A program made the translations under genes and the position numbers. Below the pieces are notes generated by a model. The model was not told the DNA's origin, did no database searches, and worked only from the letters and a program-made list of their open reading frames with translations. DNA of 41,361 nucleotides from Synechococcales cyanobacterium bin59.metabat.ball.084 (GTDB lineage: Bacteria > Cyanobacteriota > Cyanobacteriia > Cyanobacteriales > Chamaesiphonaceae): contig JAAFHZ010000028.1 of assembly GCA_013297675.1 (NCBI GenBank), positions 1 through 41,361 on the forward strand. The letters run 5' to 3'. Positions 22,814 through 40,855 of the stretch are shown here, in pieces. Each line of letters begins with the position of its first letter. The stretch's first letter is position 1.

Positions 22814-22842
22814 TTGACAGTCACTTGATATGGAATCATAAT
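22814..22842 (+). promoter_or_regulatory. sigma-70-like promoter of the GTPase operon
   Basis: TTGACA (22814-22819), 17 nt, CATAAT (22837-22842) is a near-consensus promoter. Transcription would start about 22849, giving a leader of about 37 nt before the GTG at 22886. It is the only strong promoter seen upstream of the first gene of the signalling cluster. Confidence 0.65.
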
Positions 22843-22885
22843 CAGTCTTGAGTTTTCGGTCAACTAACAAATTAAGGTTATTGAT

Positions 22886-23626
22886 GTGGGTGTCATTTAC
22901 ATCGGCGATCGGTATGCAGGCAAAACACATCTTGCTTTAGAATTGGCTAACCCAGTACATGAGTGTGTAAAAGTGCTTAGCCCTGGCTATAACGACCTTA
23001 AAAGCATTCTTTGCGATCCTGCTACAGGTAGCACGAATCCCACAAGCGTGATGCAGCCTCGCCAAATTGATATTCAGGTGAGGCTTCCTGCTGGAGCCGG
23101 GAAGGTTTTGGTTGACTGGATAGATACGCCCGGTGAAATGTGGAGACTGAAGTGGCAACAAGATAATCCGTTGCTCTGGCAGCAGTTCTTGGATGTCATT
23201 AAGCAAAGTGAGGGAATTATGCTGGTGCTTTCTCCATATGGAGAGATGATCGGAGCGAATGGTAATCCTGACGATTTTCCCACTTTTCAGCAGTGGTACA
23301 AAAGATTTGAGCGCTGGGTGGAATTTTTTAGGGCGTATTGCCCCAATCTCAGGCATTTATTAATTTGTTTGAATAAGGCAGATTTATTTTGTGATGTTAA
23401 GCAAGAGAGTGCTAGGTTAGCCTATAATACTGACAGTTACATGATGAATTGGCATCAGCGCCATAATTATATTTTAGATCATTATTTCCGACCAGTTAAG
23501 CCTCAGCTAGAGCAATTGAATCGGAGTATTAATGGGTTGTCAGTACGTTGCTTTATAACAACTATATATGATCGCTCTTTGTTGGAAATCCCTTGGATAT
23601 ACCTTGGAAGTTTTCTGTCCAATTAA
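22886..23626 (+). CDS. P-loop GTPase-like protein 1
   Basis: This 246-aa protein has a full set of GTPase motifs: Walker A GDRYAGKT (7-14), DTPGE (80-84, G3) and NKAD (163-166, G4, guanine specificity). It belongs with the small TRAFAC-type GTPases seen in bacterial conflict or signalling operons. The start is GTG 22886 with AAGG upstream. The next GTPase genes, which follow at 23663 and 24477, are different in G4, so this is the most canonical. No membrane segment is present. It is the first gene after the promoter at 22814-22842. Confidence 0.78.
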   Translation: MGVIYIGDRYAGKTHLALELANPVHECVKVLSPGYNDLKSILCDPATGSTNPTSVMQPRQIDIQVRLPAGAGKVLVDWIDTPGEMWRLKWQQDNPLLWQQFLDVIKQSEGIMLVLSPYGEMIGANGNPDDFPTFQQWYKRFERWVEFFRAYCPNLRHLLICLNKADLFCDVKQESARLAYNTDSYMMNWHQRHNYILDHYFRPVKPQLEQLNRSINGLSVRCFITTIYDRSLLEIPWIYLGSFLSN

Positions 23627-23662
23627 CTTAATGAATTTGCAATTTTCAACTGGTTTAGCATC

Positions 23663-24484
23663 ATGGGAAATATTCGCATTATTGGTCCGCGTAGTTCTGG
23701 TAAAACCACCTATTTAGCTGCTTTAGCTTATTTGCCAAAAGCATCAGGTGAGAAGTCTTATTTTAAAATTGAGCCTGTTGGTGAAGATGCAAAAAAACTT
23801 GCAGCAGAAGCAGAGAATATTATCTGCTTGTCGGAGTCTCTGACTCCTACGGGAGTAAGAACTAAAGATATTTTCTCTCTGCCTGTGTACCAATTCACGA
23901 TCGACGTCAAGCTGCCATTGCGACAGCCAGAAAGGATTGATTTGGTAGTACGAGATTATCCGGGGGAAATATTTGATGAGTTAGAAGCAGGAAACATTGA
24001 TGAGGTTCATCAAGCTTTTATGCAAGATTGTTTTATGAGCGATGTGGAAGGGTGTCTGATTTTGCTGAGTAAGTGGGAAGAAGGCAGTGATAGATTTTAT
24101 AAGCGTGTGTTCAACCAATTTTTAGAGTTGATGGATAATGAGGGGCGTGGGAGTAATCTTAGGATTGCGATCGCGATGAGTAAGTGTGAGCGGGGGGAGT
24201 TGTGGCCGGGGCGGATTGAGCCAGAGGTTGATTTGTTTGGTTTGCATTTACCTGATACGAAGGCTTTGTTGGAAAGCCGGATACCAGCTAAAAATTTGGC
24301 CTTTTTTGCGGTTTCTACTTTTGGGGTGCTGCGTCGGGATGATCCTCGACCAAATCGCACTGATGAAATGGGGTATGATGGTAAAGTTTCGGTATTGCGT
24401 CAACCGAAAATATGGCAACCATATGGCATGATGGCTCCACTTTACTGGCTGAATTCTGGTAAGAGGATTAAACACAATGTTTAA
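23663..24484 (+). CDS. P-loop GTPase-like protein 2
   Basis: This 273-aa protein has Walker A GPRSSGKT (8-15), DYPGE (98-102) and a G4-like SKCE (173-176). It shares its C-terminal motif QPYGMMAPLYWLNSGKR with GTPase 3 (RPFGLIAPLYWLCTGNR), so those two are paralogs. The stop overlaps the ATG of GTPase 3 by 8 nt, showing translational coupling. The double occurrence fits 'double-GTPase' type modules. Confidence 0.78.
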   Translation: MGNIRIIGPRSSGKTTYLAALAYLPKASGEKSYFKIEPVGEDAKKLAAEAENIICLSESLTPTGVRTKDIFSLPVYQFTIDVKLPLRQPERIDLVVRDYPGEIFDELEAGNIDEVHQAFMQDCFMSDVEGCLILLSKWEEGSDRFYKRVFNQFLELMDNEGRGSNLRIAIAMSKCERGELWPGRIEPEVDLFGLHLPDTKALLESRIPAKNLAFFAVSTFGVLRRDDPRPNRTDEMGYDGKVSVLRQPKIWQPYGMMAPLYWLNSGKRIKHNV

Positions 24485-25403
24485 GATAAATTCTATTTTT
24501 AACAAGGGTGATGATGGCAAGCCGAAGCAAGCTAATAGTTTGATTCGGATCATTGGCGATCGGGCTTCCGGGAAAACAGCTTATATGGCAGCCTTGGCAA
24601 GATGGCCAAATGCCAATGATAGTAGCCCGGTGCAAAGGGTTGTTGCCAACAATGATGATGGGAAAGAATTGATCCGTGCGGCTCAAAATCTTCTAGAGCA
24701 AGGCTTAGAACTTGAACAAACTAAACTCAATCCTAACCCTAATGAGATTAAAGATTATGCTATTGGGATCACACTAAAAGATCAGTTTTCCTGGCGAAAT
24801 ATGGCATCAAGTAACAGTGGCCAACTTATTGATTTAAATATTAATTGCAAAGACTATGCAGGTGAGTTTTTCTCGGATTTGTTGAGTTCACAAAATGATC
24901 CTGTGCTTGATGCTTATTTTACAGATTGTATTGCGGCTCAGGGTATTGCTTTACTTATTGATGGTACCAGTTACCAAAATGATAAAAAATATGCCAGCGG
25001 TTTGACTGCGTTTTTAGATGGAATTGATAATTTTGATCTTGCTGGTGAACAGCGGCGAATTGCTTTTGTGATCACAAAGTCAGAGCAGCCAGAATTGGTC
25101 ATTAATAGAAATGATTCTAAAAAAGCTTATGATTATGTACATTCAACTCGATTTCCTGAGGTCTACAAAACCTTGAAAAGTTGGCAAGCAAGGGGTACTG
25201 GTAAAGTTGATTTCTTTTTAGTATCTTCCTTTGGAACTATTGGATCTCGTGGGATAGAAGGTAATTATCGATTGCTTTCCAGAAGGCAAGGCGGAACACA
25301 AGCTGTGATCAAAAAAACTCAGCTATGGCGACCATTCGGTCTTATTGCACCTTTGTACTGGTTATGCACTGGTAATCGACATAAAGATTTAGATAAGGAT
25401 TAA
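24477..25403 (+). CDS. P-loop GTPase-like protein 3
   Basis: This 308-aa paralog of GTPase 2 has Walker A GDRASGKT (27-34), DYAGE (126-130) and a G4-like TKSE (200-203), with a polar N-terminal tail of about 20 residues. The shared C-terminal motif APLYWL is near residues 291-296. The two paralogs probably act as a pair, perhaps as a heterodimeric switch. Gap to the next gene is 5 nt. Confidence 0.78.
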   Translation: MFKINSIFNKGDDGKPKQANSLIRIIGDRASGKTAYMAALARWPNANDSSPVQRVVANNDDGKELIRAAQNLLEQGLELEQTKLNPNPNEIKDYAIGITLKDQFSWRNMASSNSGQLIDLNINCKDYAGEFFSDLLSSQNDPVLDAYFTDCIAAQGIALLIDGTSYQNDKKYASGLTAFLDGIDNFDLAGEQRRIAFVITKSEQPELVINRNDSKKAYDYVHSTRFPEVYKTLKSWQARGTGKVDFFLVSSFGTIGSRGIEGNYRLLSRRQGGTQAVIKKTQLWRPFGLIAPLYWLCTGNRHKDLDKD

Positions 25404-25408
25404 AATCA

Positions 25409-27859
25409 ATGGCTATTACAATTCATGAATTTAGCACAGGAATTAGACCTGATCGGACTCCTGACGGTGGGTGGGTTTCTCGTGGTTTTACAAGTCGGTT
25501 TATGAACAGCACGGTTAATCCAATTCCACATGAAATAGAAAGATCGATCGCTAACTTCGATTTTAGTATTACTGAAGGTACGGCTAAAGATGAACCCGCT
25601 TTTATCGGTCGAATTATTGCGAGTCAAGATCAACAGCGATTATGGTCTGTGGTTGCCATAGTTTCACGGGGAAAAGACGAAGTAGGTCGGAGTGCGCCTT
25701 TTTTTCGCTATTTTTTTGTGGAGAGTGGATCAGATGAGGATTACATTCCGCATATTTTAGCTTGGTTTGATCAATACAAACGTGAGCATGGTAAGTATCC
25801 GATTTTCAACCCGTTTGATCAGAAAACCATAGGAAGTGAGCTGAAAATTGACATCACCCCAAAAAGGTTGCAGATGGAAAGTCGTCTGTTACAAGATCAA
25901 GCTCCGATGATTTTCAAGTTCGATGAGTATAGTGCTGCTGCTATACATGAGCTATCTATGGCAAAATTGCGAATGGAAAATCAAGAAAATATTTTACCAG
26001 CGTGGGCATTTAATGTTGAGGCCGTAGAAAGGCCAGGGCAGTTTACAGCAATTAGAGCTGCTAGTGACACATCTTATAAGGCATTGTTAAGTACTAAAAA
26101 AGCTATAGCTGGAATTCAACCAAGAGTAGTTTTTGATGAAGAGTCTGTGAAAACGGCACTAAAAGGAATTACGAATAGCCCCACAATTAAGGATGAACAT
26201 TTTCAAGATTTTGTGAAAGCTTTAGCTGATCAAAAAGTTACTGGTCAATGGTCAAGGATATTCAATGGTTTAGGGTCTAAAAATGCACTGGATCGGGGAA
26301 TATACAATTCTCAAATGATAAAGCTACTGATTCTCCAGTCTGTAGCTATCCCACCTTTAGCACTTGATTATGTAAAATGGCTCGGTAAAAGTGATCAGAA
26401 AAGTCGAGAAATTGCAAAAGCTTTTGAAAAAGATTTTTTTTATAAAGTCAGCAGCCTAAGCAATCCTGATTTATTTGAGCAAGTCAAAAATCAACTAGTG
26501 GAAGGATTTGGTGTATTCATGATAAGTTTTATGAGTGACAAAGGCTTACTTGAAAATTTATTTAGCAAGGGCACAGTGCATTTTTTGTGGCTTGAACAGT
26601 CACAGGGATTTATTAAAGCACTTATCTCTGATCTGGATCTAATGGGGAGTTGCTTTCAATCACCATCTCAGGCTAATTTACAAACTATTCAACCCAACCG
26701 AAAAGCAAAAAAAACATCACCTATAGGTTCGACTTTCACCGATACTACTAGTAATGACATAAATCCTCAAGGATCATCAATGGTATTATCTCAAAATATA
26801 GCTACTTCTGGTGTTAATCAACCAACTAAAACTCAGAGAGAAGAAGCATATAAAAATGCCGATTTTGCACTGAAAAATGGAGAATGGGAACGCATCCGGT
26901 CTGACATTTGGGACTTTTGGAATTCTAGAAAAGATCGCAAATTTCTTAGACCCGAATATTTATATCTTGCTGAATTTTTTGAAAAAAGTGACAGTAAAAC
27001 AGTCGCTATCATTTTTTATGATGTTGCCCAGGGAAAAATACCAAAACATCTTTACAAAATCCAATCAAATATCTATGGAATGCCTCTTGATACAGACTTG
27101 AGCTTCATAGAGAAAGTACAAGAAGTCCAAAATAAACTATTCGTTTCCTTGGTGAGAAGTCCTTTTTTTGATCTCAAGCGATATCCTAAAACACACAACA
27201 AACAAAATTTAATTATGAAGATACCCTTCGTTATTTTTATGATGCTGATATCTACAATTTCTGGTGCTATTGGTGGGAGGTATTTTGCATCCCAGTCAAA
27301 ACCACTTACGGAGACTAAACAGCCTATCACCACTCCTATTAATTCACAACGGAATAAAACTATCCTCGATGATAAAGCTGAACAAATTGGGATTTTAATA
27401 AGCTCTCTGTCTCGAAATACTAGCACATTACCACCAATAAAAAGTGGCTGTGGTGATAATGTGACTGATTCATTTTTTAAAAAGGTGGGAATTACCAAGC
27501 CAGAAGACGATTTGAAAAACATTTGTGAAATCATCAAAAAATACAAGCAGTATCCTGATTCAGAAGCATTAAAACAGAACATTCAAACATCTGTAAAAGA
27601 CAATAACATTAAAATAATAGATCAGTGGGAAAAACTCAAAATAAAAATTATAGATCAGCAAAGAAAAATATCTCAATTAAATCCTGGAGATCCACTTCCA
27701 AAACAAGAACAGCAAACCAAAATAAATGAAATAAACTTGGATCTCCAGTCAATAGATAAAGTAGATAGAAAAATGATTGACATAAGCCCAGAAATATATA
27801 AATTAATAATGGAGCATAGAGAAAAAACTCCAGCAGTAAGGCAACAAAATCCCGGATAG
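25409..27859 (+). CDS. large GTPase-associated-like protein with one membrane segment
   Basis: This 816-aa protein has an N-terminal globular part (about 1-400; motif GRIIASQDQQRLWSVVAIVS, then FFRYFFVES) that in position and general pattern recalls the GAP1-type N-terminal domains placed next to paired GTPases in conflict systems. A Ser/Thr/Gln-rich linker (about 425-470), a helical middle, one membrane segment (about 602-624) and a charged coiled-coil C-terminus (about 700-800) follow. The GAP1 link is a hypothesis. Being 5 nt after GTPase 3 and touching the next gene, it is clearly in the same operon and could anchor the GTPases to the membrane. Confidence 0.55.
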   Translation: MAITIHEFSTGIRPDRTPDGGWVSRGFTSRFMNSTVNPIPHEIERSIANFDFSITEGTAKDEPAFIGRIIASQDQQRLWSVVAIVSRGKDEVGRSAPFFRYFFVESGSDEDYIPHILAWFDQYKREHGKYPIFNPFDQKTIGSELKIDITPKRLQMESRLLQDQAPMIFKFDEYSAAAIHELSMAKLRMENQENILPAWAFNVEAVERPGQFTAIRAASDTSYKALLSTKKAIAGIQPRVVFDEESVKTALKGITNSPTIKDEHFQDFVKALADQKVTGQWSRIFNGLGSKNALDRGIYNSQMIKLLILQSVAIPPLALDYVKWLGKSDQKSREIAKAFEKDFFYKVSSLSNPDLFEQVKNQLVEGFGVFMISFMSDKGLLENLFSKGTVHFLWLEQSQGFIKALISDLDLMGSCFQSPSQANLQTIQPNRKAKKTSPIGSTFTDTTSNDINPQGSSMVLSQNIATSGVNQPTKTQREEAYKNADFALKNGEWERIRSDIWDFWNSRKDRKFLRPEYLYLAEFFEKSDSKTVAIIFYDVAQGKIPKHLYKIQSNIYGMPLDTDLSFIEKVQEVQNKLFVSLVRSPFFDLKRYPKTHNKQNLIMKIPFVIFMMLISTISGAIGGRYFASQSKPLTETKQPITTPINSQRNKTILDDKAEQIGILISSLSRNTSTLPPIKSGCGDNVTDSFFKKVGITKPEDDLKNICEIIKKYKQYPDSEALKQNIQTSVKDNNIKIIDQWEKLKIKIIDQQRKISQLNPGDPLPKQEQQTKINEINLDLQSIDKVDRKMIDISPEIYKLIMEHREKTPAVRQQNPG

Positions 27860-28975
27860 ATGGCAAATATGAATAGTTTAATTAGAACTTGGTTGTATTT
27901 AGTTTCAGGATTGGTATCTGCTCTTATTGGGTGGAATATTGGGCAAGTATTGCTTACTGATTTTGGTTGGTTGAAGCAAATTCCCGAGCTAATTCTTTTT
28001 CCTTCCGTAGCAGTATCTTTGGCTGTTGGTATGTCGGTTACAGAAATATTTGTCAGTAACCCCACTCGTTTTAAGTTGAGTTTACGAACTGCCAAAGAAT
28101 CCTTAAAATGGGCGATTCCACTAGGGCTATTCTCAGGAATCATTTCTGGTGGCATTTGCCAGATCCTATTTATGCCAGCTTTCCGCATACCTCCTACTAT
28201 GGTGCGAATCTTTGGCTGGCTCCTAATTGGCGGTTTTGCTGGATTAGCTGAAGGTTTTACTTGGCGACAACGTAGTATAGAAGCTGGTAACAAAGAGCGT
28301 GCTGATAATCGTTTGAGGGCAAGTGCCTTTGGTGGATTGGGAGCAAGCTTGATGGCGGCAATTATTTTTGAATTTCTTCGGAAGAGCATTGGCGATCAAT
28401 TACCAGGGTTACAAAATTTTGAAGACCCGCTGGGTTTTGGTATTTTAGGTCTGTGTCTTGGTTTTGTCTTTAGTTGTACTTCATCACCTAGTTATTTGGT
28501 GGCTCTGAGAGCTGGCGGCGGGTTTGAGTTTACCGGCGATGATTATAGCGGTTTAGGGGCAGATGATGATGATCTTTCTGTATCGCCTTCTATCAATCAA
28601 GACTCTGAAGGTACAATCAAGTTATCTTTTATCAACAACAGTGAAATGGTAGTAATTGAGGAGGGTTTATCGATTCAATTACCATCTTCTGGCAAGATTC
28701 ATATTGGTGCCGCAGCTAAATCGCATATCCGTATTCCGGCTTTACCAACTCATGTGGCAGATTTGGAGCTGAAAGGGCGAGAAACTATTTTGCGACCTAA
28801 CGGCAAATTTTTTGGCGTGATCGAAATCAATGGCCAGAAATTATTTTCTAAAGGTTCAGTTACTTTAAAGCATAACAATGTTATTACTTTTTACACAGTA
28901 CAAAATAATGCAATTAATCCCAAAAAGTTTTATCGGTTTGTCTACTACAATCGATTTTTGGACCCGCAGGCTTAG
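27860..28975 (+). CDS. polytopic membrane protein with FHA-like C-terminal domain
   Basis: This 371-aa protein has about six membrane segments in residues 8-220, a short acidic linker (GADDDD) and a beta-rich C-terminal domain (about 255-355) that looks like a degenerate FHA fold (IHIGAAAKSHIRIPALPTHV, later INGQKL and LKHNNVITF). The usual FHA arginine and Ser-Arg-His motif are missing, so it may bind protein without phospho-threonine. It starts directly after the stop of the previous gene (ATG 27860), and its 3' end is overlapped by the vWA gene. Confidence 0.6.
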   Translation: MANMNSLIRTWLYLVSGLVSALIGWNIGQVLLTDFGWLKQIPELILFPSVAVSLAVGMSVTEIFVSNPTRFKLSLRTAKESLKWAIPLGLFSGIISGGICQILFMPAFRIPPTMVRIFGWLLIGGFAGLAEGFTWRQRSIEAGNKERADNRLRASAFGGLGASLMAAIIFEFLRKSIGDQLPGLQNFEDPLGFGILGLCLGFVFSCTSSPSYLVALRAGGGFEFTGDDYSGLGADDDDLSVSPSINQDSEGTIKLSFINNSEMVVIEEGLSIQLPSSGKIHIGAAAKSHIRIPALPTHVADLELKGRETILRPNGKFFGVIEINGQKLFSKGSVTLKHNNVITFYTVQNNAINPKKFYRFVYYNRFLDPQA

Positions 28976-30191
28976 CCTATCTATATTGGTTATCGTTACC
29001 GGGGCCAGTCCCTGTTGGGCAAAATTACATTCAGTCGAGATAGTAGGTAATCCGAGTGTTAATAATGATCGAGTTACTTTGAGAGTTAAAGCTAAACAAG
29101 AAGATGGTAAACCAGTTTTAAGCTTACAAGAAAAAGATTTTAATATTCTTGTTGATGGTCAACCCGTTAAGTTAAATCCCAAAAACTGGAAAAGTTCTAA
29201 GGAAGCTATTCCACCCCCCGTATGGATTATCTTCTTACTAGACTATAGTGGTAGTATGCAAGGCCAAGATGTGAAAGGTTCTCCGAAGTTAGACGGAGCA
29301 ATCAATGCTATCAAGCAATTTACCAAATCTGCTGTCAAACGCGGCGGAGTTACCAATGTATCAATCGTTCCTTTTGGCGAAGGTGAAGCTTGCAATAAAC
29401 CAGTTACCCCAGTTGAATTAGATCGTTTTTTTCAAGTAAATGATGCGAAAATTGAAAATCAGCTAGATAATCAGCGAGATAACTTTTTCAAAGGTGGTTG
29501 GTGTCAGAACACTAATATTTACAATCCTGTGACGGAAGCAGTAAACTTTTTTGCAAATCCAAAAGATCTGCGTTTTCATCCAACAGAGGCAAGTGAGGCT
29601 CAAGCGAGAATGACGATAGTACTACTTTCTGATGGATACCACGATATGCCTAACGAACCTGCTGATTTTGAACGCTTGATTAATTTTTTAGCAAAAAATG
29701 ATACTGTTGTGATCCATACGTTAGGTTATGGTTTAACTCCAGATAAATTAGGGCGGAAAGTAGGATTGAATCGACCAGCTAAACGTAGTGATGTTGAGGC
29801 AAATCGGGTTTCTGAGTTAGAATTTGTTGATCAGGAGAAGCTTGCTAAAATTGCTAATGTTACCGGTGGGATAGCTGAATTCTCTCCTGATGCTAAAACG
29901 GTATCGGAAAAACTAGATTTATTTTTAAATGCTATACTAGGAGAGTACGAAATAGTCTATAATCAACCTAATCCTGAACGCGGATCGAAACATGATGTCA
30001 AAGTTGTTGTCAATAACAATGAAACTGAAGCTATCTCGTCATCTAAAAACTATATTGTCAGCGTATTTGGAAGACCTGTTTCTTTACCAAAACGTTTGAC
30101 AATGATCTTAGGACTAGTCTTCTTACTAGTTATCGCTGGACTTTTACCATTTTGGCTATGGGGGAAGGAATTAAAAAAAGAGAAATTATAA
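28908..30191 (+). CDS. exported, membrane-anchored vWA-domain protein
   Basis: This protein has a signal peptide with an Arg pair and hydrophobic core (TRRLSLSILVIVTGASPCWA), a vWA domain with MIDAS DYSGS (D112, S114, S116) and LLSDG later, and a C-terminal membrane segment (LGLVFLLVIAGLLPFW) with a short basic tail. So the vWA domain should face the periplasm. The start is uncertain: ATG 28878, ATG 28908 or TTG 28938 are in frame; 28908 is chosen because it leaves a reasonable signal peptide. All overlap the 3' end of the preceding gene. The 146-nt gap after it includes a weak hairpin. Confidence 0.75.
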   Translation: MQLIPKSFIGLSTTIDFWTRRLSLSILVIVTGASPCWAKLHSVEIVGNPSVNNDRVTLRVKAKQEDGKPVLSLQEKDFNILVDGQPVKLNPKNWKSSKEAIPPPVWIIFLLDYSGSMQGQDVKGSPKLDGAINAIKQFTKSAVKRGGVTNVSIVPFGEGEACNKPVTPVELDRFFQVNDAKIENQLDNQRDNFFKGGWCQNTNIYNPVTEAVNFFANPKDLRFHPTEASEAQARMTIVLLSDGYHDMPNEPADFERLINFLAKNDTVVIHTLGYGLTPDKLGRKVGLNRPAKRSDVEANRVSELEFVDQEKLAKIANVTGGIAEFSPDAKTVSEKLDLFLNAILGEYEIVYNQPNPERGSKHDVKVVVNNNETEAISSSKNYIVSVFGRPVSLPKRLTMILGLVFLLVIAGLLPFWLWGKELKKEKL

Positions 30192-30202
30192 GTCACAAAA
30201 TC

Positions 30203-30233
30203 CATTGGAAAATAGCTAGCTCTAATTCCAATG
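30203..30233 (+). terminator. weak hairpin in the 146-nt operon gap
   Basis: CATTGGAA (30203-30210) pairs with TTCCAATG (30226-30233) around a 15-nt loop; TTTGATTT follows. It could be an attenuator or weak terminator between the GTPase part and the downstream part of the cluster. The pairing is A/T-rich and the U-tract poor. Confidence 0.3.
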
Positions 30234-30337: not shown

Positions 30338-31300
30338 ATGACCAATAAAAAGAAGTCTTTTGATGCATTTGGCTTGCCAATTCTAATTGCATCCATAGCT
30401 GGAGTAGCAAGTATTTTATTTCTTATTATAGCCGACCCACAAGACTTTTTCTATATACAAGAAGAAAAATGTCATCAGTTGGAGCCTGAAACAAATATTC
30501 CAGGAGCAGATTCATCAGGTAAAATAAAATGTAGTTCTTGGAGATGGAAATTTCGAAGAGCATCTCCAATTTTTTCTAGTTTGTCATCATCATTCGTAGG
30601 CAGTGCCTTGACTATTATTTTCTTTGAGATTTTGCTAAAAAGATTTTACGCGGAACAACTTGATAAATCTATTGACAGTCTTTTAGACAAGAAAAGAACA
30701 GAGGATAGCATTAGTAAAATAAGTAGATTTTATTCAACAGCAGATAAATATCACCAAGAGATATGGAATAGTATAGAAATCAAAGATAAAAATCCTGGTA
30801 GCAAAGCAGCTAAAATAGATGCTATAGAGATCCATCACAGCGTTTATTTCTTAGCAACTGACAAACTAGACCTGTTACAAAAGCGAGTACAAAATGGGTG
30901 GAAGATAAGGCTTCTCGTAACATATTTAGATCAGTCAACAAAAGATAATGTGGATAAGTTGAGAAAAATTTTACAATATGAAATAGGAGATACAGATCAA
31001 AAAAAAGAAGGTTTTGGTTATCTTGAGATTAGGCACTATCAGAACGTGCCTGGCCCCCCATTTTTTTACTTTAATTACCATGACGAAACAAACGAATCAT
31101 CTACATCTATAGTCCGTGAATCGATTTTATTTTCTTTGTTTTGTGCTGCCGAAAATTATTCCGTTACACCTGGATTTTCTATCACAGACCCAAGCGTGAA
31201 GCAGCAGTTTAATGAATGCTTTGAAAAGCTATGGGATGAAGCGAGAGATGATAAGATAATTCTATCGTACCGGGAAGGATCTACAACTACTAACACATAG
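30338..31300 (+). CDS. two-TM protein with cytosolic domain of unknown family
   Basis: This 320-aa protein has membrane segments at about 12-33 and 77-101 with a short external loop holding C45 and C65, which might form a disulfide outside. The cytosolic part (110-320) is mixed alpha/beta (for example NGWKIRLLVTYLDQSTKDNV and EIRHYQNVPGPPFFYF); it has features reminiscent of phospholipase-D-like or related folds, but no HxKxxxxD motif. It is not recognised. AT-rich, it sits between the exported and cytosolic vWA genes in the same direction. Confidence 0.55.
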   Translation: MTNKKKSFDAFGLPILIASIAGVASILFLIIADPQDFFYIQEEKCHQLEPETNIPGADSSGKIKCSSWRWKFRRASPIFSSLSSSFVGSALTIIFFEILLKRFYAEQLDKSIDSLLDKKRTEDSISKISRFYSTADKYHQEIWNSIEIKDKNPGSKAAKIDAIEIHHSVYFLATDKLDLLQKRVQNGWKIRLLVTYLDQSTKDNVDKLRKILQYEIGDTDQKKEGFGYLEIRHYQNVPGPPFFYFNYHDETNESSTSIVRESILFSLFCAAENYSVTPGFSITDPSVKQQFNECFEKLWDEARDDKIILSYREGSTTTNT

Positions 31301-31323
31301 CTTTTTTAAATGTTAAAAACACC

Positions 31324-33087: not shown

Positions 33088-33119
33088 CAACCTATATCAC
33101 AACAACCTGGAGACTTCTA

Positions 33120-33704
33120 ATGATTTCTTGTCACGAATGTGGATACGATAATCCAGCCCCCGCCGAATTCTGCGAAATTTGCGGCATTGAACTTGCTGTC
33201 ACACCAACTGCGGCTAAATCTACGCCTGCTGTTACCTCACGAGCACCATTAGAGCAGAATGATTCTTTAGCGCCTCCTCAATGGAGTTCACCAACGCCAG
33301 TTGTGGCACCAGAGATATTAGAGCAACCTGCTGCTCCAATTAGTTTTAGTAACTCTCCTATAATAGGGACTCCTAAATTAATTGCAAAACAAGCTGGAGC
33401 AGTTATCCCTGAATTCACTTTAGATAAATCAAGCTTATTAGTGGGTATTTTCGATCCTGATAGCGGCCCAGTAGAAATTGATTTAGATAGTTTTGCTGGC
33501 AGTGATACAGTCTCTCGACAACATGCAGAAATTTATTTGGAAGCTGGGGAATGGAAAGTTAAGGATTTAACCTCTACCAATGGAGTATTTATTAAGAAGT
33601 CTAGCCAACAGCGTTTTGGTGGAAAAATTGTTTCCCCACAGTTGCTAGAAGATGGCGATGAGGTGGCCTTTGCCAAAATACAATTTACTTTCAGAACATC
33701 ATAA
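33120..33704 (+). CDS. zinc-ribbon / FHA-domain protein
   Basis: This 194-aa protein starts with a zinc ribbon (C4, C7, C18, C21), then a Pro/Ala/Ser-rich linker (about 28-85) and an FHA domain (about 100-194). The phospho-threonine site has S132-R133-H135 and N154-G155, but the conserved Gly-Arg is Gly-Ile (VGIF, 108-111), so an important phosphate contact is missing. GGAG lies upstream of ATG 33120. It follows the vWA gene by 32 nt. Confidence 0.82.
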   Translation: MISCHECGYDNPAPAEFCEICGIELAVTPTAAKSTPAVTSRAPLEQNDSLAPPQWSSPTPVVAPEILEQPAAPISFSNSPIIGTPKLIAKQAGAVIPEFTLDKSSLLVGIFDPDSGPVEIDLDSFAGSDTVSRQHAEIYLEAGEWKVKDLTSTNGVFIKKSSQQRFGGKIVSPQLLEDGDEVAFAKIQFTFRTS

Positions 33705-33882
33705 ATTCCGTGCGATTAGAACTTAATACATGAACTTTTAAATGATTGTCAGTCCTCATTACTTTTGATATTGATGGCACATCTATTTGATAACAACGCT
33801 AATAGCATGGAAATATATACATTTGAAATAAATAGGCATAGCTAAGGTTTATATTCTCTGAAATCAGCTAAAGTACAACATT

Positions 33883-35724
33883 ATGAACAAAGTCCTAGAT
33901 CAAGAAGAATTTGAATTTGTTATCCAAACTGGACAAAAGATTCTTCTCGAAGATTTTCAAGTAGAGATTGAATCATCTATTTGTCAAATCTCAGATGTAT
34001 ATTATTTCCAGGTTTCTTTCTACTCTCAACAAGCTGAAAGAGACAACCCTCACCCCAACCTGCAAAAAGGGTTATTAAGAGTTGGCTCATTAGATGGTGC
34101 GTTACACCGCGAGTTGGAAATCAGAGATAAGCTTGGCGATTACAAAATGCTATCTAAAGCATTGTTTTATACCAAGAGTGAAAAAGTCTTTGTTTCATCC
34201 CAATTACCATCATCTATAAGTGCCTTAGATGAGTTAAGCACCGAGTTAAGCTTTCAAGATATTCCTTATAAGTTATTGACCCATATAAAAATTCTTGAGC
34301 TGTCAAATGAATTAATTGAATTAGTTAGCGAAAAAGAACCTCTTCAGAATGAAGAAAGTGAATTCCTTGAAGAAGAGTACTATCAAGAAGATGAAAGCTT
34401 ATATCAATCTATTGGGAAAAAGATTTTATTTTTAAGCGATCTTCCTAGTAGTGGTCACACATTAGAAACTTGGCTCAAGAATGCTCCCTATTCTGTAGAA
34501 GAAGTCTTATCAGTTTGTAGTCAACTGTGCCAGGTTTGCAATTATATTTCAAAGCATAAATATTACTTTGTAGATATTCTGCCTCAGTTTGTCCAGATAG
34601 GTACTTCTATTCAGATTTTCGATCTAACCAGAACTTTGGGTGAAGGGACTTCTTTATCTGATTACATTGTGATGGATTATAGTGCGCCCGAGATTTCTTA
34701 CCACCCTGATTTAATCGTTGATGAATATCTAATTACTTATACGATCGGATGTTTATTATATCAGGGGATATATGGAAAAACACCCATTAGCAATAGTAAT
34801 GAATTATGGGATATTGAAAAGATTCCCGGAATTTTTCAAATTCTAAAAATATGTCTTTCACCCAATCCTGAAGAGCGATTTCCTCTTACCCAACTAGTCA
34901 AAATACTCGTAGAAGCACGAAAACAACAGACAATTCGTAAAATCACTTGGAATATTGCGACTAAATCTACCATGGGTTTATCATTGAATCGCCTGCAAAA
35001 TGAAGACAATTTTAGTGTGAAGCAACAACATGATTGTTCTGGAAACTCAATTTTATTAGCCGTTGTCGCTGATGGTATGGGAGGGTTAGCAAAGGGGGAA
35101 GTTGCCAGTAAAATAGTAGCTGATACATTCACTCAATCAAATATTCCTGACAAATTTTCTGAAGCTATAGAACGAAATAAATGGCTGTTATCACTTGTGG
35201 AAACTGCAAATATCGAAGTGGTTAAAGCAATTAGTGGTGATGGTGGAACAACCCTCAGTAGTATTATGGCTTGGAATGATGAACTAAGTCTTGCTCATGT
35301 TGGAGATAGCCGAATTTATCTGTTACGAGACGGGATGGTTTGCCAACTGAGTGAAGATCATTCAATGGTAGCCATGCTATTGGCAAATGGAACGATTTCT
35401 TATGAAGAAAGTCTAGAGCACCCAAATAAAAATGTTTTGTCAAAATCATTAGGGTCACTCAAAATACTCAGAGATGACTATATACAAACACTAGATCGAT
35501 TCTTTACTAATTCCACTATGACTCTGAGGGATAAAGATGTAATAATTATCTGTTCTGATGGAGCATGGGATTTACTACCAGCTTCTGAATTAGTGGAAAT
35601 TTTTAATGATCAAAATAGCCTTCAACAATCGGTTAATACGGCTATTGATAAAGTCATTAAAAAAGGTGCTCATGACAACGCTACAATTGTCGCTTTAGAA
35701 TGCCATATTCAGAGAGGTTGTTAA
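33883..35724 (+). CDS. pseudokinase-PP2C phosphatase fusion
   Basis: This 613-aa protein has a C-terminal PP2C domain (about 365-610) with all key metal residues: ED (374-375), DGMGG from D397, GTTLS (455-459), HVGDSR (472-477), SDG (558-560) and HDNATIV (598-604). The N-terminal part (about 195-345) is kinase-like in its C-lobe (YSAPE at 266-270, DEYLITYTIGCLLYQG, and ERF) but has no P-loop, no catalytic lysine, no HRD and no DFG, so it should be an inactive pseudokinase. The phosphatase probably counteracts the adjacent kinase. It ends 4 nt before that gene. Confidence 0.85.
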   Translation: MNKVLDQEEFEFVIQTGQKILLEDFQVEIESSICQISDVYYFQVSFYSQQAERDNPHPNLQKGLLRVGSLDGALHRELEIRDKLGDYKMLSKALFYTKSEKVFVSSQLPSSISALDELSTELSFQDIPYKLLTHIKILELSNELIELVSEKEPLQNEESEFLEEEYYQEDESLYQSIGKKILFLSDLPSSGHTLETWLKNAPYSVEEVLSVCSQLCQVCNYISKHKYYFVDILPQFVQIGTSIQIFDLTRTLGEGTSLSDYIVMDYSAPEISYHPDLIVDEYLITYTIGCLLYQGIYGKTPISNSNELWDIEKIPGIFQILKICLSPNPEERFPLTQLVKILVEARKQQTIRKITWNIATKSTMGLSLNRLQNEDNFSVKQQHDCSGNSILLAVVADGMGGLAKGEVASKIVADTFTQSNIPDKFSEAIERNKWLLSLVETANIEVVKAISGDGGTTLSSIMAWNDELSLAHVGDSRIYLLRDGMVCQLSEDHSMVAMLLANGTISYEESLEHPNKNVLSKSLGSLKILRDDYIQTLDRFFTNSTMTLRDKDVIIICSDGAWDLLPASELVEIFNDQNSLQQSVNTAIDKVIKKGAHDNATIVALECHIQRGC

Positions 35725-35728
35725 AATC

Positions 35729-37819
35729 ATGACAATACAATGCCCTACCTGTTTGGGTAATAATCCTGATGGCTCAATTAGTTGCCTGAGTTGTGGAGAA
35801 CAGTTATCTGTCAGTGTTACTGGTAGCCATTTGCCACCAAATACAACTCTAAATAATGGTCAATACCAAATCATAAAAACCTTAGGAGAAGGTGGTTTTG
35901 GTATAACTTATAAAGGGATGGATCTAAGTAATGGAAATATCGAAGTTGCCATTAAAGAGCTTTGGCCAGAGAGAAGTAATAGAAATAGCCAAAAGTCAAT
36001 TGAGTGGCCATTATTAATTTCGCCACAGGAAAAACGCAATCAAATTGATAGTTTTCAAAAAGAAGCCGAGAATATTTCTAAATGTATCCACCCCAGTATT
36101 GTTAAAGTATTTAATTATTTCACTGAGAATAATACTGCTTATATTATCATGGAATTTATTAAAGGCCAGCCCCTATCAGAAATCCAAAAAAATGCCGGTG
36201 GTAAATTAAGTGAAGCGACCATCAAAAAATATTTTCTTCATGTTGCCGAAGCTTTAAAAGTAGTCCATGCTGCCAATTTGCTTCATCGTGATATCAAGCC
36301 AGATAATATTATTGTTAATGACAGTGACCGGGCAATTCTTATCGATTTTGGTAATGCCAGAGGATACATCGCAGGTGTTACCAATAATATGACAAGAAAT
36401 TTAACACCAGGATATGCTCCCTTAGAACAATATATTACAACTGGTAAGCGTGGTCCTAGCACCGATTTTTATGCTGTCTGTGCTTCAATGTACCATCTAT
36501 TGACTGGTGTGATACCGCCAGAGCCAGCAGCTTTAAGCGCTGGTTGGGCAAATCTTATCCTTCCCAGTCAAATATTACCTAGTGTCGATCGCTTACTCGA
36601 ACAAATTATTATGAGTGGGTTGAAAGAAAAAGCTGAGGAAAGATTTCAGACAGCCGATGAACTAATCGAAGCACTAAAAGGGCGATTTATTTCTCCACTA
36701 CTAAAAAAAGCTCAAGATTTAGTCAAGCAAAATCGTTTTGGTGATGCTATCTCTGCATATGAGAAATGTCTTGTGGCAGAGCCAAACAATGATTTAGCTA
36801 TTGTTGAAATGGCTATAGTAATGCTTCACAATAATGATCCTCGCACCGAAGCTACTGCTCAACAAGCTGTCAAGATCGCACCGGAAGATGGGCGAGGACA
36901 AGGTATACTCGGTTTGATTGAGTGTCGTCAAAGCAATTGGTTGACGGCACTAAAACATTTAAAAGAAGCTGAGCAGTACGCACCACAAGAGCCGTGGATA
37001 CAAGCAAATCTGGCTTGGGCAGAAGCAAAAACAGGTGATTGGAATAATGCTTATCAAAGAGTATGTCGAGTTCAGCCGCTAGCCCCAGATGAAGTTTTTA
37101 TAGGAACACTAAAATCTTGGATTGCAGCTAACCAGCAAAACTGGAAAATGGCCATTAAAGATGCCCAAGCGACCATTAAAAGTTCTTCATTATCTACTCA
37201 ATCTAACAGTCAAATGCATCAAGATTGTGCATATTCATGCTTGCTTTTTGCACTTGAAAATTTTATTAATAACCCCCTTACACCCTATGCTAACAAATGC
37301 TTACAAGAATTTTTAAGTACTGTACCAACCAGCAGCTTTGCCCAAGGGTTCAAAGGCTATCGGCAAGCTCAGTTTCAACGTTGGGCTGAAGCAGAAGTTT
37401 CTTTGAAAAATATTTCTAATGTATCTAGCCAGTGGGTATTAACAAACTTGGCTATCAGTCAAGAACAACAAGGGAAAACCACAGAAGCCTTCATGACATA
37501 TGATAAAATATCCCGTCAATTTAGAGAAAATTCATTTGCCTTGTTTCGCATGGGAACAATATGCGCCCAAAAAGCTGATTGGTCAACAGCCCAAAAATAT
37601 TTGGAAGAATCAGTTAAATTAAATGACTCATTTCCTGAAACATATCATAATCTAGGGTGGGTTTTATCCAACATAAAAACCGCTGATGGACAAGCTGAAA
37701 ATCCTCGTCAGATTCTAGAGTCTTACAGAAAAGCTGTGGATTTATATCTGCGACAAAAAAGGTCATTAGATGCTCAGCAAATAAAAGCTGCCTTTGACGC
37801 GATCGATATTACCCTATAA
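35729..37819 (+). CDS. Ser/Thr protein kinase with N-terminal zinc ribbon and TPR tail
   Basis: This 696-aa protein combines a zinc ribbon (C5, C8, C19, C22), a kinase domain (about 45-315) with GEGGFGIT (53-60), K76 in VAIKE, HRD (186-188), N193, DFG (206-208) and APLEQ, and a helical C-terminal half with TPR-like repeats (about 330-690). All catalytic residues are present, so it should be active. It is 4 nt after the phosphatase gene and is the only intact kinase of the cluster, so it is the likely source of the threonine phosphorylation read by FHA proteins. Confidence 0.92.
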   Translation: MTIQCPTCLGNNPDGSISCLSCGEQLSVSVTGSHLPPNTTLNNGQYQIIKTLGEGGFGITYKGMDLSNGNIEVAIKELWPERSNRNSQKSIEWPLLISPQEKRNQIDSFQKEAENISKCIHPSIVKVFNYFTENNTAYIIMEFIKGQPLSEIQKNAGGKLSEATIKKYFLHVAEALKVVHAANLLHRDIKPDNIIVNDSDRAILIDFGNARGYIAGVTNNMTRNLTPGYAPLEQYITTGKRGPSTDFYAVCASMYHLLTGVIPPEPAALSAGWANLILPSQILPSVDRLLEQIIMSGLKEKAEERFQTADELIEALKGRFISPLLKKAQDLVKQNRFGDAISAYEKCLVAEPNNDLAIVEMAIVMLHNNDPRTEATAQQAVKIAPEDGRGQGILGLIECRQSNWLTALKHLKEAEQYAPQEPWIQANLAWAEAKTGDWNNAYQRVCRVQPLAPDEVFIGTLKSWIAANQQNWKMAIKDAQATIKSSSLSTQSNSQMHQDCAYSCLLFALENFINNPLTPYANKCLQEFLSTVPTSSFAQGFKGYRQAQFQRWAEAEVSLKNISNVSSQWVLTNLAISQEQQGKTTEAFMTYDKISRQFRENSFALFRMGTICAQKADWSTAQKYLEESVKLNDSFPETYHNLGWVLSNIKTADGQAENPRQILESYRKAVDLYLRQKRSLDAQQIKAAFDAIDITL

Positions 37820-37833: not shown

Positions 37834-38691
37834 TTAGCCGCAGACTGTTTTCTCGTTGGGGTCGAGCCTAACTTTATATATTTCCCATTGCTGACTACTA
37901 TCATTCCATTTCAAATGGAAGCGAAGAAATAATCCAGAAAGCTTGTTGCTTTTCAGCTTGCAACTTGCCCTGAGCCGGATTTCAGCATTATATTCTGATT
38001 TCTCCACCACATCTAAACTGTTAATATTGATACCATTTAAGCCATCATAAAAATCAGTAAAAGAGTTATAGCCATTAGGGTGTACTGTTCGATTATCTCG
38101 CAAATCGATCGGTAATCTATTCCAAGCCGATTTGTAATCTCGACTATTAATCTTTTCATAGTATTGTGTGATCACATCCTTTGGTGAATTTCCTGGTCTC
38201 GGCTGAGGGGTTTGGACAACTGTTGGTTTAGAAGGCAAAGGGCTAGGAGACGGTGGATTAGTAGCAGCCACAATCAGATTAGGCTTATTGAAATCATTCA
38301 AGCTCATCTCTATCTTAAAACTACCAGCCCCCCGCCTATTCTCGATTTGAGCTAAATATTTACCATCTTGTGGTAGATTGCTATTGGCAACTATTTTGTT
38401 ATCTGGATCAAAGATCCAAATGCAAATGTCAGGATTTTCCACTTGGTAGTTAAAACTTTGTTTTTTCTTTGCCTTAAAGGTATATCCTACCGACTCTCCC
38501 CCAGCCACAGCATCAGATTTGCTAATTTTGGCAGATGATAGCTGAATATCCTGAACTCTTTTAGAATTTAGGGTAGATGATGGCTTCTCAGGACAAGCCG
38601 ATGCAGAATTGTTTATATTCTGACAGCCAGAGATGCCAAATATTCCAGAAACAATGCTGACAGTAATGATTTGCAAAAATATTTTATGCAT
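37834..38691 (-). CDS. lipoprotein with PPC-like and NTF2-like regions
   Basis: This 285-aa protein has a lipoprotein signal (MHKIFLQIITVSIVSG, lipobox GISGC, C23). A PPC-like beta-domain follows (about 60-135), then a Pro-rich linker and an NTF2-like C-terminal region (about 170-280; DVITQYYEKINSRDYKSAW). It is the only gene of the cluster on the minus strand; its 3' end converges on the kinase gene with a 14-nt gap. The start is ATG 38691, with in-frame ATGs at 38712 and 38739 less likely. It may be an extracytoplasmic sensor of the cluster or an unrelated insertion. Confidence 0.65.
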   Translation of the reverse strand: MHKIFLQIITVSIVSGIFGISGCQNINNSASACPEKPSSTLNSKRVQDIQLSSAKISKSDAVAGGESVGYTFKAKKKQSFNYQVENPDICIWIFDPDNKIVANSNLPQDGKYLAQIENRRGAGSFKIEMSLNDFNKPNLIVAATNPPSPSPLPSKPTVVQTPQPRPGNSPKDVITQYYEKINSRDYKSAWNRLPIDLRDNRTVHPNGYNSFTDFYDGLNGININSLDVVEKSEYNAEIRLRASCKLKSNKLSGLFLRFHLKWNDSSQQWEIYKVRLDPNEKTVCG

Positions 38692-38928
38692 CCGTGTTAA
38701 GATTGGGTTCATCAATAAACACAACTTTTCTATAACCAACCAAATTTATTGTATGTTTTCCAAGGTGTCAAGATGTATGTGATCATAGCATAATTCAAGA
38801 GTACGTCGATTCAACCCTGAATCGTAATTAGCCTTATCAGTTTTTATTCCGCTGATTTTCAACGTGTAAAGGTTGAACCAGCATTAATATCTACTATCCC
38901 CTTTTTTAAATTACCAAACACTGAGCTA

Positions 38929-40272
38929 ATGAACTCTCATGTTATTCTTTCTGTCATTTCTGGCCCTTGTCTCGGTACCACCCAAATTTTTGATAAACCT
39001 GGAACATACTCGATCGGGCGTGAAGAAGACCAACGAGACATGGCCTTACCAGACATTCCCGAACATCAGAATGTTTCTCGTCATCACTGTGACTTTAAAA
39101 TCACATCCCTCAATCCGCCTAATATTACCATTCTTGATAAGAGCGTCCACGGCACCTTTCATAATGGTCGCAGAATCAATCAAGAAATAGCTTTAGCAGA
39201 TCAAGATATTTTCAGTCTTGCCGACATCGCAATTCAAATCACGATCATTAATCCAACCGTCTCCAATCAAGAGCCAGGCCAAATTTTCCAAGCTGGGATA
39301 TTACTAGTTCCTAAGTTTGTTGAAGTAATTAAAAACTTTCTTGAGTTATCTCCTCCCATACCGACACCTTCTTCTACCGAAGAGCCACCCCCCGTTACCC
39401 CTCTGCAATTTCAAGATTATGAACTAGGAGAGATCCTTGGCCAAGGAGCTTTCAGCAAAGTACACAAAGCTACTCATCGACAATCTGGAAAACAAGTCGC
39501 TTTGAAGTTTTTGCAAGCAGATATTGCCAGCCAAGACGAAGCAACCCAAAGATTTATTAGAGAAATTGACAATACTAAGGTTCTTGATCATCCAAATGTA
39601 GTGAAACTTTTAGCATTTCGCTATCAGCAAGGAGCTTTTTTCTATACCACCGAATATTGTGAAGCTGGTAGCCTGTTTGCTCTAATGCAAAGTTTGGGAA
39701 AAAAACTACCTCTGGCCTGGGCAAAATTAGTGATTGCGCAAATCTTGAATGGATTAGCTTATATCCATGAAGTGGAAGTGCCGTATGTTCAATTTCCTGA
39801 TGGTAGCTCTGGCAAAGGTAAAGGATTAATACATCGTAACCTTAAACCAGAAAACATTTTACTTACCAACCAGCAAGGCAGGCTGGTTGTAAAGATTGGT
39901 GATTTTGCTTTGTCCAAACCTTTTGGCTCTGCCGAATTAACTCAGGCTACAGGAATCTCTCCTGGCACTCCATGTTTTATGTCTCGCAGTCAGCTATTAA
40001 ACTATCAAATAGCACAGCCCGAAATGGATTTGTGGGCAGCCGCCGCATGTCTATACGAAATGTTGACGGGCTACCCTCCTCGGGATTTTGGAGATCAAGA
40101 CCCGATAGAAGTAATCATGAACAATGATGCCGTTCCCATTTTGGATCGATCGCCCTACTTACCAGCAACCCTAGCAGCCGTGATTGATCAAGCACTGCAA
40201 GAAGATAAGAATTACAATACCTTTTACAAAACTGCTCAAGACTTGAAACGTGATTTGTTAGCAGCTTGGTAG
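38929..40272 (+). CDS. FHA-domain pseudokinase
   Basis: This 447-aa protein starts with a canonical FHA domain (about 1-108) with intact G30-R31, S50-R51-H52 and G80. The kinase-like domain (about 163-447) keeps the glycine loop GQGAFSKV (171-178), K193 and E212, but the catalytic HRD is HRN (N304), DFG is DFA (325-327) and the APE box is SRS (352-354). So it should be a pseudokinase that binds phospho-threonine partners by its FHA. It is the natural phospho-reader of the cluster. It starts 189 nt after the lipoprotein start, on the opposite strand. Confidence 0.85.
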   Translation: MNSHVILSVISGPCLGTTQIFDKPGTYSIGREEDQRDMALPDIPEHQNVSRHHCDFKITSLNPPNITILDKSVHGTFHNGRRINQEIALADQDIFSLADIAIQITIINPTVSNQEPGQIFQAGILLVPKFVEVIKNFLELSPPIPTPSSTEEPPPVTPLQFQDYELGEILGQGAFSKVHKATHRQSGKQVALKFLQADIASQDEATQRFIREIDNTKVLDHPNVVKLLAFRYQQGAFFYTTEYCEAGSLFALMQSLGKKLPLAWAKLVIAQILNGLAYIHEVEVPYVQFPDGSSGKGKGLIHRNLKPENILLTNQQGRLVVKIGDFALSKPFGSAELTQATGISPGTPCFMSRSQLLNYQIAQPEMDLWAAAACLYEMLTGYPPRDFGDQDPIEVIMNNDAVPILDRSPYLPATLAAVIDQALQEDKNYNTFYKTAQDLKRDLLAAW

Positions 40273-40327
40273 CAAAAATATTGAGATTTGGTTCATAATA
40301 ATATCCAAGTCTCCAATTACTAAGCTC

Positions 40328-40855
40328 ATGGCTTCTCGTCCTACTAACCCGGCCTCATCTAATCCTATTCCGACACAACCACCTGGTAATGCTCGGAAAA
40401 CCAGCGCCCAGAGACTTCGCACTTTGCAAATCCCTGGCCTAAAAGCAGTAAAGGGCTGGTCACAAAAAACAATAACTCCAGTTTCTAGGGACCTCAATCT
40501 TCCTATCAAACGTGTGGGGTTCGTTGTATTGCCATTGTTTTTGGCAGTTTGGTTAATGAGTTCTGTGTACAATTTTTTTGCTGGCTTCTTTAATAGACCT
40601 CCACTTGCAACCCCTCAAGCTTCTACGCAACCGGTGGAAGTTGCTAAACCCACCGCGACGGTGAGAGATGGCACCAAGTCAAATTACTGTGACGGAATAA
40701 GCGGTAAGATGCAAACTGCAAAGGTTAGTCATAAGCAAGTAAACAAAATATTTTGGGAAAAGCACCCTGAGCAACGAAACAAGCCAATTAGTGCTGGTAA
40801 TAAAGATTTGACTCAAGAGTGGTGTCAAATTGCTGAGTCTCTAGCAAAAAAATAA
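40328..40855 (+). CDS. single-TM hypothetical protein
   Basis: This 175-aa protein has a basic Pro-rich N-terminus (1-60), one membrane segment (about 63-88) and an external domain with C121 and C166, which could form a disulfide. It follows the FHA-pseudokinase gene by 55 nt and is likely its last co-transcribed member. No family is recognised. Confidence 0.6.
   Translation: MASRPTNPASSNPIPTQPPGNARKTSAQRLRTLQIPGLKAVKGWSQKTITPVSRDLNLPIKRVGFVVLPLFLAVWLMSSVYNFFAGFFNRPPLATPQASTQPVEVAKPTATVRDGTKSNYCDGISGKMQTAKVSHKQVNKIFWEKHPEQRNKPISAGNKDLTQEWCQIAESLAKK

Follow-up and report, generated by a model that had tools for sequence, protein, structure and literature searches.

The window analysed here, 41,361 nucleotides of contig JAAFHZ010000028.1 from the 4.64-Mb draft genome of Synechococcales cyanobacterium bin59.metabat.ball.084, carries a cluster of twelve genes on the plus strand (A to L, 22886-37819), followed by a convergent lipoprotein gene (M), which is real, conserved and mobile and forms one system. 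An earlier note, made from the letters of the window, had described the run up to position 40855 as a candidate for an undescribed membrane-spanning system of signalling or conflict. We found the genes that it listed (three tandem GTPases, membrane proteins, two vWA proteins, FHA proteins, a PP2C phosphatase and a kinase) all open at their places, and gene order, co-occurrence and copies on plasmids bear out its view that they belong together. We propose that the cluster is a conserved, horizontally mobile cyanobacterial system in which a GTPase switch at the inner membrane would be linked to the cell envelope and regulated through threonine phosphorylation, a reading to which we give an even chance.

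Firstly, we assayed the conservation of gene order. Sixty loci were annotated and ten were dropped (three without a match to B and seven duplicates), leaving 50. A lies directly before B in 46 of the 50; B, C and D are contiguous in 37 of the 46 loci with more than 3.5 kb downstream; and in the 42 loci with more than 9 kb downstream, E and F follow in order in 33 and the whole run from A to F can be traced in 30, a missing C and single unassigned open reading frames (ORFs) being allowed. H stands on the strand of B in 18 of these 42 stretches, the majority of which stop some 10 kb beyond B. Secondly, we established co-occurrence in 148 genomes of the order: homologues of D are present in 26, of GTPase A in 27 (one by a marginal match of 23 residues) and of H in 22, and all 22 H-bearing genomes also hold A (Fisher 8e-22). 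When 12 separate stretches were merged with the first stretch of their genome, 22 loci (window included, duplicates kept) held all of H, I, J and K, and 21 of them held A as well, the exception (L039) starting inside D at a contig end. In two genomes (G018 and G023) the block H-I-J-K-L lies on a different contig from A-D; hence the link between the two halves is not only one of adjacency. Thirdly, the distances between B proteins track those between the A, C, E, F, H, I, J and K proteins (r 0.64-0.94, with 0 of 2000 permutations as high), and with the two vWA families labelled separately the correlation is 0.73 for B-I, 0.72 for E-I, 0.80 for I-K and 0.81 for H-I, all values being computed with near-duplicates (B distance 0.03 or less) left out and uncorrected for the species tree.

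The earlier note had itself stated that, if homologues of the GTPases and of the kinase module were never neighbours in other genomes, the cluster would be a chance adjacency of two systems. The recurring gene order, together with the fact that H never occurs without A in the 148 genomes, is the opposite of that. A chance meeting of a GTPase cluster with an unrelated kinase cluster could appeal to a second type of locus, described below, which shows that the halves are separable; set against the co-occurrence in the 148 genomes and the 21 of 22 merged loci, the last of which is cut by a contig end, it is extremely improbable.

The system is patchily distributed and is found on plasmids. A profile of E detects it in 18 of 292 genomes of the phylum, all 18 in the order to which the window belongs; a genome scan with B returned at least 40 loci, all with cyanobacterial titles; and seven other genomes of the genus and family, drawn within the 148 of the order, are without A. 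Homologues of C occur on 8 of 72,556 plasmid records, all cyanobacterial, two of them typed as conjugative and four as mobilizable. We examined five of these eight, leaving out H3, H4 and H7: plasmid B of Trichormus variabilis ATCC 29413, pCy782202 of Gloeothece verrucosa PCC 7822, and plasmids of Tolypothrix PCC 7712, Nostoc linckia NIES-25 and Nostoc ATCC 53789. On each of these plasmids the genes A-F, H and I stand in order. The nearest earlier mention of a plasmid copy is Ava_B0009, listed as a kinase plus TPR in a 2007 kinase survey (PMC2176072).

Two types of loci can be distinguished. Type I loci carry H-I-J-K-L. Type II loci (L050, L051, L081, L082, L086, L088, L121 and L122) carry A-F and H, with an AAA+ ATPase replacing I-L, the family being recognised with Pfam for L050 and with a profile for the remaining seven; six of the eight also have two extra upstream genes, coding for a Fer4_12 protein and for a protein with a below-cut-off Miga match. 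Some copies have additional neighbours: the system adjoins MoxR, GUN4 and SUMF1-like genes on the Tolypothrix plasmid (L105) and a dynamin-family gene on the Nostoc ATCC 53789 plasmid (L107), and in one genome (G002; L043, 4861-6729) an Eco29kI-like nuclease and a cytosine methylase, a restriction-modification pair, stand between J and K.

The layout of the cluster is given in Table 1.

Table 1. Genes and sites of the cluster in the window, with the two genes that follow it
Feature	Coordinates	Strand	Length (amino acids)	Description
Promoter-like site	22814..22842	+		TTGACA-17-CATAAT before the operon; 11/12 consensus match only
A	22886..23626	+	246	GTPase, GTG start; P-loop GDRYAGKT, DTPGE, NKAD; no Pfam match
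B	23663..24484	+	273	DO-GTPase2-like GTPase; PF19993 E 1.3e-5, 25.5 bits, below the cut-off of 27
C	24477..25403	+	308	DO-GTPase2 GTPase, paralogue of B; PF19993 E 3.8e-7, 30.4 bits, above cut-off
D	25409..27859	+	816	Predicted longin/TagF-like N-terminal domain, helical middle, one transmembrane segment (about 601-619)
E	27860..28975	+	371	Five transmembrane segments (hydropathy); structure model with six long helices; C-terminal FHA fold (about 211-367)
F	28878..30191 (ORF)	+		vWA (Pfam), C-terminal transmembrane segment, signal-like start; overlaps E by 98 bases
G	30338..31300	+	320	Two predicted transmembrane segments and a soluble domain; in the variable slot
H	31324..31704	+	126	Conserved small protein without known domain
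I	31774..33087	+	437	Cytosolic vWA (Pfam), DTSGS motif
J	33120..33704	+	194	Zinc ribbon and FHA (Pfam FHA 2.7e-11)
K	33883..35724	+	613	Pseudokinase-like N-terminal part and PP2C phosphatase; four PP2C motif patterns
L	35729..37819	+	696	Zinc ribbon (by eye), kinase, TPR repeats; VAIK/HRD/DFG intact
M	37834..38739	-		Lipoprotein, convergent, 3' of L; family between F and H in relatives
FHA-kinase	38929..40272			HRN instead of HRD, DFA instead of DFG (motif scan)
Small transmembrane protein	40328..40855			

The cluster has a guanine-plus-cytosine (GC) content of 0.35-0.43, against 0.46-0.51 in the preceding 14001-22000. Ahead of the GTPases, where the earlier note had seen a strong promoter, one of the two promoter-like sites of the region that match the consensus at 11 of 12 positions is indeed present and may plausibly act as the operon promoter, but such sites as a class (63 found, 53.5 expected by chance, standard deviation 6.2) are not clearly above chance. 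The right edge that had been placed at 40855 has to be moved. No ORF of the compared loci matches the FHA-kinase over its FHA part, the kinase part matching L-type kinases there with up to 56 bits, and the small transmembrane protein yields a single match of 24 bits, to an M-family ORF. Because these last two genes (38929-40855) are without proper relatives at the loci, the conserved system ends near 38739. M, which had not been listed, falls inside this limit, and its family sits within the operon elsewhere. Likewise, an intact kinase and a pseudokinase had been counted; L is intact, but two kinase-like proteins, the FHA-kinase and the N-terminal part of K, are without the intact motif set, and the former is likely to be inactive. 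Pfam was run on 15 proteins of the stretch, and PADLOC and NCBIfam on 10 of these. Besides the matches given in Table 1, Pfam recognised PP2C in K and a protein kinase in L, and there was no accepted Pfam match for A, D, E, G, H or M; NCBIfam returned only vWA- and PP2C-type models, under their cut-offs; and no nuclease or toxin was recognised by Pfam or PADLOC, which agrees with what had been said of the cluster.

The three tandem GTPases would form the switch. A motif scan revealed the P-loop, DxxGE and G4 motifs in all of A, B and C. The hallmark of DO-GTPases, a Walker B glutamate in a TRAFAC-type GTPase, is found in each of them as D-x-x-G-E, and in the family alignments the D and the G of this motif are invariant or nearly so and the E is nearly invariant. 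The occurrence of two paralogous copies, another DO-GTPase trait, is seen in B and C (hhalign E 7e-64); the GTPase core that A and B have in common aligns with E 9e-8, and profile comparison of A with 11 GTPase domains of its own genome gives E 1e-6 over 130 columns. The best match of the B profile among the sequences of the PDB has E 0.003, such matches being at the level of the P-loop. Across the phylum, Pfam DO-GTPase2 is found in 25 of 194 genomes, a count that is unsorted as to membership in this system. A special link between these GTPases and TssM was considered and is not established, the likeness going no further than the GTPase core or P-loop.

D, which directly follows the GTPases, was modelled from 41 sequences (mean predicted local distance difference test (pLDDT) 76, mostly 87-97 over residues 1-420), and the closest likeness of its predicted N-terminal domain is to TagF, an FHA-binding regulator of type VI secretion of the longin type; homology between the two is not established by sequence. 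In Foldseek, the top four rows for this domain are TagF chains of two organisms, the best being 9t0n (probability 0.93, E 0.02). The superposition on 9t0n in VIA covers 191 aligned residues with a root-mean-square deviation of 4.3 and a Z of 6.5, a score that unrelated models can reach and that lies in the range, below 8, where a match may reflect a common arrangement. Chains of GATOR1, SEA and Lst4-longin fall on the same residues of D with Z 4.1-4.9; only the Lst4 row is labelled as longin, and we take the GATOR1 and SEA chains to be of the longin fold too. Other folds in the VIA list cover residues 239-399 and 735-789. Small GTPases of eukaryotes are known to work with longin-type partner domains, which fits the position of D directly after the GTPases. 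TagF itself has been likened to the Sec22b longin domain (PMC3325213).

We then looked at the sequence of the domain, using a TagF alignment of 12 plasmid sequences. The sole hhalign match places W79-F98 of D on the TagF segment PSxDRVGR. The pattern DxxGR occurs in 30 of 37 D N-terminal domains and in 12 of 12 TagF sequences, with 117 occurrences per 440,358 residues of all ORFs of the compared loci. In Agrobacterium TagF, changing together the equivalents of P. aeruginosa S79, D81 and R85 abolished Fha binding (PMC5995506), and these equivalents fall within the PSxDRVGR segment. The segment is suggestive of kinship between D and TagF, without being proof of it. Pfam TagF_N was not matched in ten D N-terminal domains, and the D profile found nothing among PDB sequences (best E 0.35). 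PG_binding_1 is detected in 9 of the 26 D-family members scanned, with E down to 3.7e-11.

The membrane and envelope proteins are encoded by E, F, G and M. The structure model of E (17 sequences, mean pLDDT 81) ends in an FHA fold (VIA Z 13.4 to EmbR; Foldseek probability 1.00), and FHA domains or FHA proteins are named in nearly all of the 50 rows that score best in VIA. F probably starts later than its ORF, and it is predicted to be exported from its C-terminal transmembrane segment, assigned by rule, and a signal-peptide-like start seen by eye; metal-site motifs are present in the vWA proteins (motif scan). G has no relative: its only match in the 148 genomes is itself, none was found among the ORFs of the compared loci, and its best Pfam match is DUF5751 at E 0.022 only. 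The C-terminal part of M is possibly NTF2-like, and its best-scoring family reaches only E 0.19 (MecA_N).

The slot between F and H varies. In relatives it holds M-family lipoproteins, ARC6-like proteins (PF13355, E 1.2e-20), beta-lactamase-like serine hydrolases (PF13354, E 1.4e-13) or a further vWA family, and it is empty in several loci; in the window it holds G, and M is placed after L. We counted slot genes of at least 120 amino acids on the strand of F, skipping repeated loci: 37 of 44 are exported or membrane-bound by a simple hydropathy and lipobox rule. By the same rule, A, B, C, H, I, J and K are nearly always soluble (62 of 64 for A and 47 of 47 for H). These changing genes therefore look like envelope sensors rather than toxins. 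The system could also serve ordinary maintenance of the envelope or septum (wall growth, filament integrity or control of the conjugation surface) with no role in conflict, for which the peptidoglycan-binding domains in D relatives, the ARC6-like and beta-lactamase-like slot proteins and the export of slot products all speak. Since the system is patchy (27 of 148 genomes, with the seven genomes of the genus and family lacking it) and plasmid-borne, it is dispensable for basic envelope growth, and we consider such a housekeeping role unlikely.

The cytosolic half, H to L, has the parts of a phosphorylation circuit. I matches, in addition to vWA, a vWA-TerF-like model below cut-off (Pfam). All 22 relatives of J keep the SxxH and NG patterns of the FHA domain, but no more than 6 of the 22 keep GR. 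In K, the N-terminal part has none of VAIK, HRD and DFG, and the Pfam kinase model is matched there below cut-off; L, whose motifs are intact, is predicted to be an active kinase. Neighbouring genes for a vWA protein, a PP2C phosphatase and a kinase also make up the TerY-P triad, with which the TerF-like match of I is in keeping; here, in contrast, an FHA protein lies in between, the PP2C is fused to a pseudokinase and the set is coupled to GTPases, and no TerD match was obtained in the 15 proteins. With MoxR-vWA ternary systems (PMC7159879), the cluster shares a vWA protein in a multi-gene signalling locus, and one plasmid copy lies beside MoxR and GUN4; the switch here is a GTPase set, and MoxR was not matched in the 15 proteins.

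The closest published systems are those of DO-GTPases and GAP1, including a rarer actinobacterial theme with a zinc-ribbon kinase, PP2C and vWA, described by Kaur et al. 2020 (PMC7159879). The cluster had been called undescribed, and this holds in part: the theme has been published, but that paper describes the class as built around GAP1, which we did not find here, and as nearly completely absent from cyanobacteria. Among open-licence papers, we found no earlier description of the cyanobacterial arrangement. With theme three of the GAP1-N2 systems, as set out there, the cluster shares tandem GTPases with the Walker B glutamate, a large partner directly 3' of them, transmembrane components, a zinc-ribbon kinase, PP2C and vWA. 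The theme-three set itself (a kinase, often with a zinc ribbon, a PP2C and a standalone vWA) is found in L, K and I, as judged by Pfam and by motifs and, for the ribbon of L, by eye. The cluster differs in being cyanobacterial, in having three GTPases without zinc ribbon matches and a D without detectable GAP1, and in the addition of the membrane FHA protein E, the exported vWA protein F, H and a mostly exported cassette.

Whether D is GAP1 was assessed in several ways. GAP1 models gave no match in the D of the window, nor in ten D N-terminal domains at E up to 10. A search for GAP1-N2 in 98 cyanobacterial genomes gave no match in any of them, the control, Corynebacterium glutamicum, being positive, and no FN3 or FNIII domain was detected in the 15 proteins at E 0.01. 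GAP1-N1 and GASH were likewise absent from the Pfam matches of the 15 proteins and the ten D N-terminal domains, inclusion of these two models in the library being unchecked. As GAP1-N2 is missing from both the 98 genomes and the ten domains, we do not class the cluster among the GAP1 systems; it is a DO-GTPase system whose partner protein either is of another kind or has changed too far to be recognised. In the second case, it would be a diverged member of the published theme three, D being a GAP1 beyond the reach of Pfam and GAP1-N perhaps sharing the TagF fold. The DO-GTPase2 matches of B and C, a composition that agrees almost item by item with theme three and the place of D directly 3' of the GTPases, which is that of GAP1 in the published systems (PMC7159879), favour this membership; with the GAP1 and FNIII searches on the other side, we hold it possible, if doubtful.

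A comparable question arises for the threonine-phosphorylation pathway of type VI secretion (PpkA, PppA, Fha and TagF), which shares with the cluster a predicted TagF-like fold beside FHA, PP2C, kinase and vWA proteins, as well as the DxxGR pattern. Here, by contrast, the TagF-like domain, whose sequence homology to TagF is not established, is part of a transmembrane protein, and three GTPases are present. The sheath protein VipA/TssB (PF05591) was found in 0 of the 148 genomes, that of the window included, with a positive E. coli control, so that membership in type VI secretion is excluded. The cluster could still be the control and membrane part of some secretion or injection machine related to it, given this combination of domains and the order tssM-tagF-PP2C in 6 of the 9 annotated type VI stretches used for the TagF alignment; the lack of VipA, and of any Pfam match to tube, spike or baseplate components in the 15 proteins, makes this very unlikely.

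We propose the following working for the envelope-coupled GTPase switch. A disturbance of the cell wall, caused perhaps by a phage that infects the cell, by a neighbour that conjugates or attacks, or by damage to the wall itself, would be sensed by periplasmic lipoproteins, by F and by the C-terminal part of D, where some relatives have a peptidoglycan-binding domain. Through D the signal would cross the membrane and reach the longin/TagF-like domain of this protein in the cytoplasm, which may act as an adaptor or regulator of the three GTPases. By phosphorylating and dephosphorylating threonines that J would read with its FHA domain, kinase L and phosphatase K would set the threshold. E, with its FHA domain at the membrane, would offer a docking site, by analogy with the binding of TagF to Fha in type VI secretion, and may perhaps also read the state set by K and L. 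The two halves would be coupled by I and H.

Several observations weigh against this picture, besides the limits already attached to the Z of 6.5 and to the distance correlations. No effector was recognised among the proteins scanned by Pfam and PADLOC, and the sole PADLOC match is a weak one, of K to mad6 (E 0.0025). Profiles of D and TagF do not match significantly (hhalign E 0.1, score 17.8, the best of six shuffles reaching 16.7), the weaker Foldseek rows for the D N-terminal domain include GFP and PAS chains, and the D of the window has itself no PG_binding_1 match. The serine of SxxH is missing from the FHA domain of E in 17 of 17 rows, so that E may dock something other than phosphothreonine. 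As regards the GTPases, a whole-genome search with Pfam DO-GTPase2 gave no match in the genome of the window at E 0.001; ordinary GTPase domains score slightly above TssM against A (48.5 and 43.5), and TssM scores above them against B and C (48.1 and 47.8, versus 37.3 and 37.2) over only 16 and 36 columns round the P-loop. Lastly, the distances of L do not follow those of B in type I loci (r 0.07, 720 of 2000 permutations as high), which may be caused by other kinases of the region sharing the L label.

A role against invaders or in conflict is plausible. In its fullest form, put forward tentatively and as rather doubtful, the cluster would be a plasmid-spread immunity that senses contact or invasion, made of a TagF/FHA/kinase/phosphatase circuit of the type VI secretion kind but free of any secretion machine, a triple GTPase switch and swappable envelope sensors. 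If so, TagF and GAP1 would both descend from an ancient family of bacterial GTPase partners of the longin type. The cluster bears on the origin of the threonine-phosphorylation module of type VI secretion. It also offers a concrete idea of how the GTPases may be read out, by a TagF-like partner of the longin type next to an FHA domain in the membrane. The occurrence of the system on plasmids of culturable strains (Trichormus variabilis ATCC 29413 and Gloeothece PCC 7822) makes a class known in silico experimentally tractable. With the cluster, a whole GTPase-centric system is placed in a phylum that the 2020 survey called nearly completely lacking in them (PMC7159879).

The remainder of the window holds a number of other features. 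At 21702-22418, a XisI gene (PF08869, E 1.9e-42) lies before the operon and is preceded by an ORF of 109 amino acids that resembles a shortened XisH. The stretch 10001-14712 is low in GC (0.31-0.35 over 10001-14000); it encodes a protein of 866 amino acids (10124-12724, minus strand), whose only match is to LeuA_dimer, below cut-off, and an ORF of 221 amino acids (14047-14712, plus strand) without Pfam match, in which a GEAKIH segment resembles a nuclease motif. At 453-1881 on the minus strand, a gene for a helix-turn-helix protein with an IrrE-like peptidase stands beside a HigB-like toxin gene (PF05015, E 1.5e-10), forming a toxin-antitoxin-like pair, and at 3872-5374 pantoate-beta-alanine ligase and cytidylate kinase are encoded by one fused gene.

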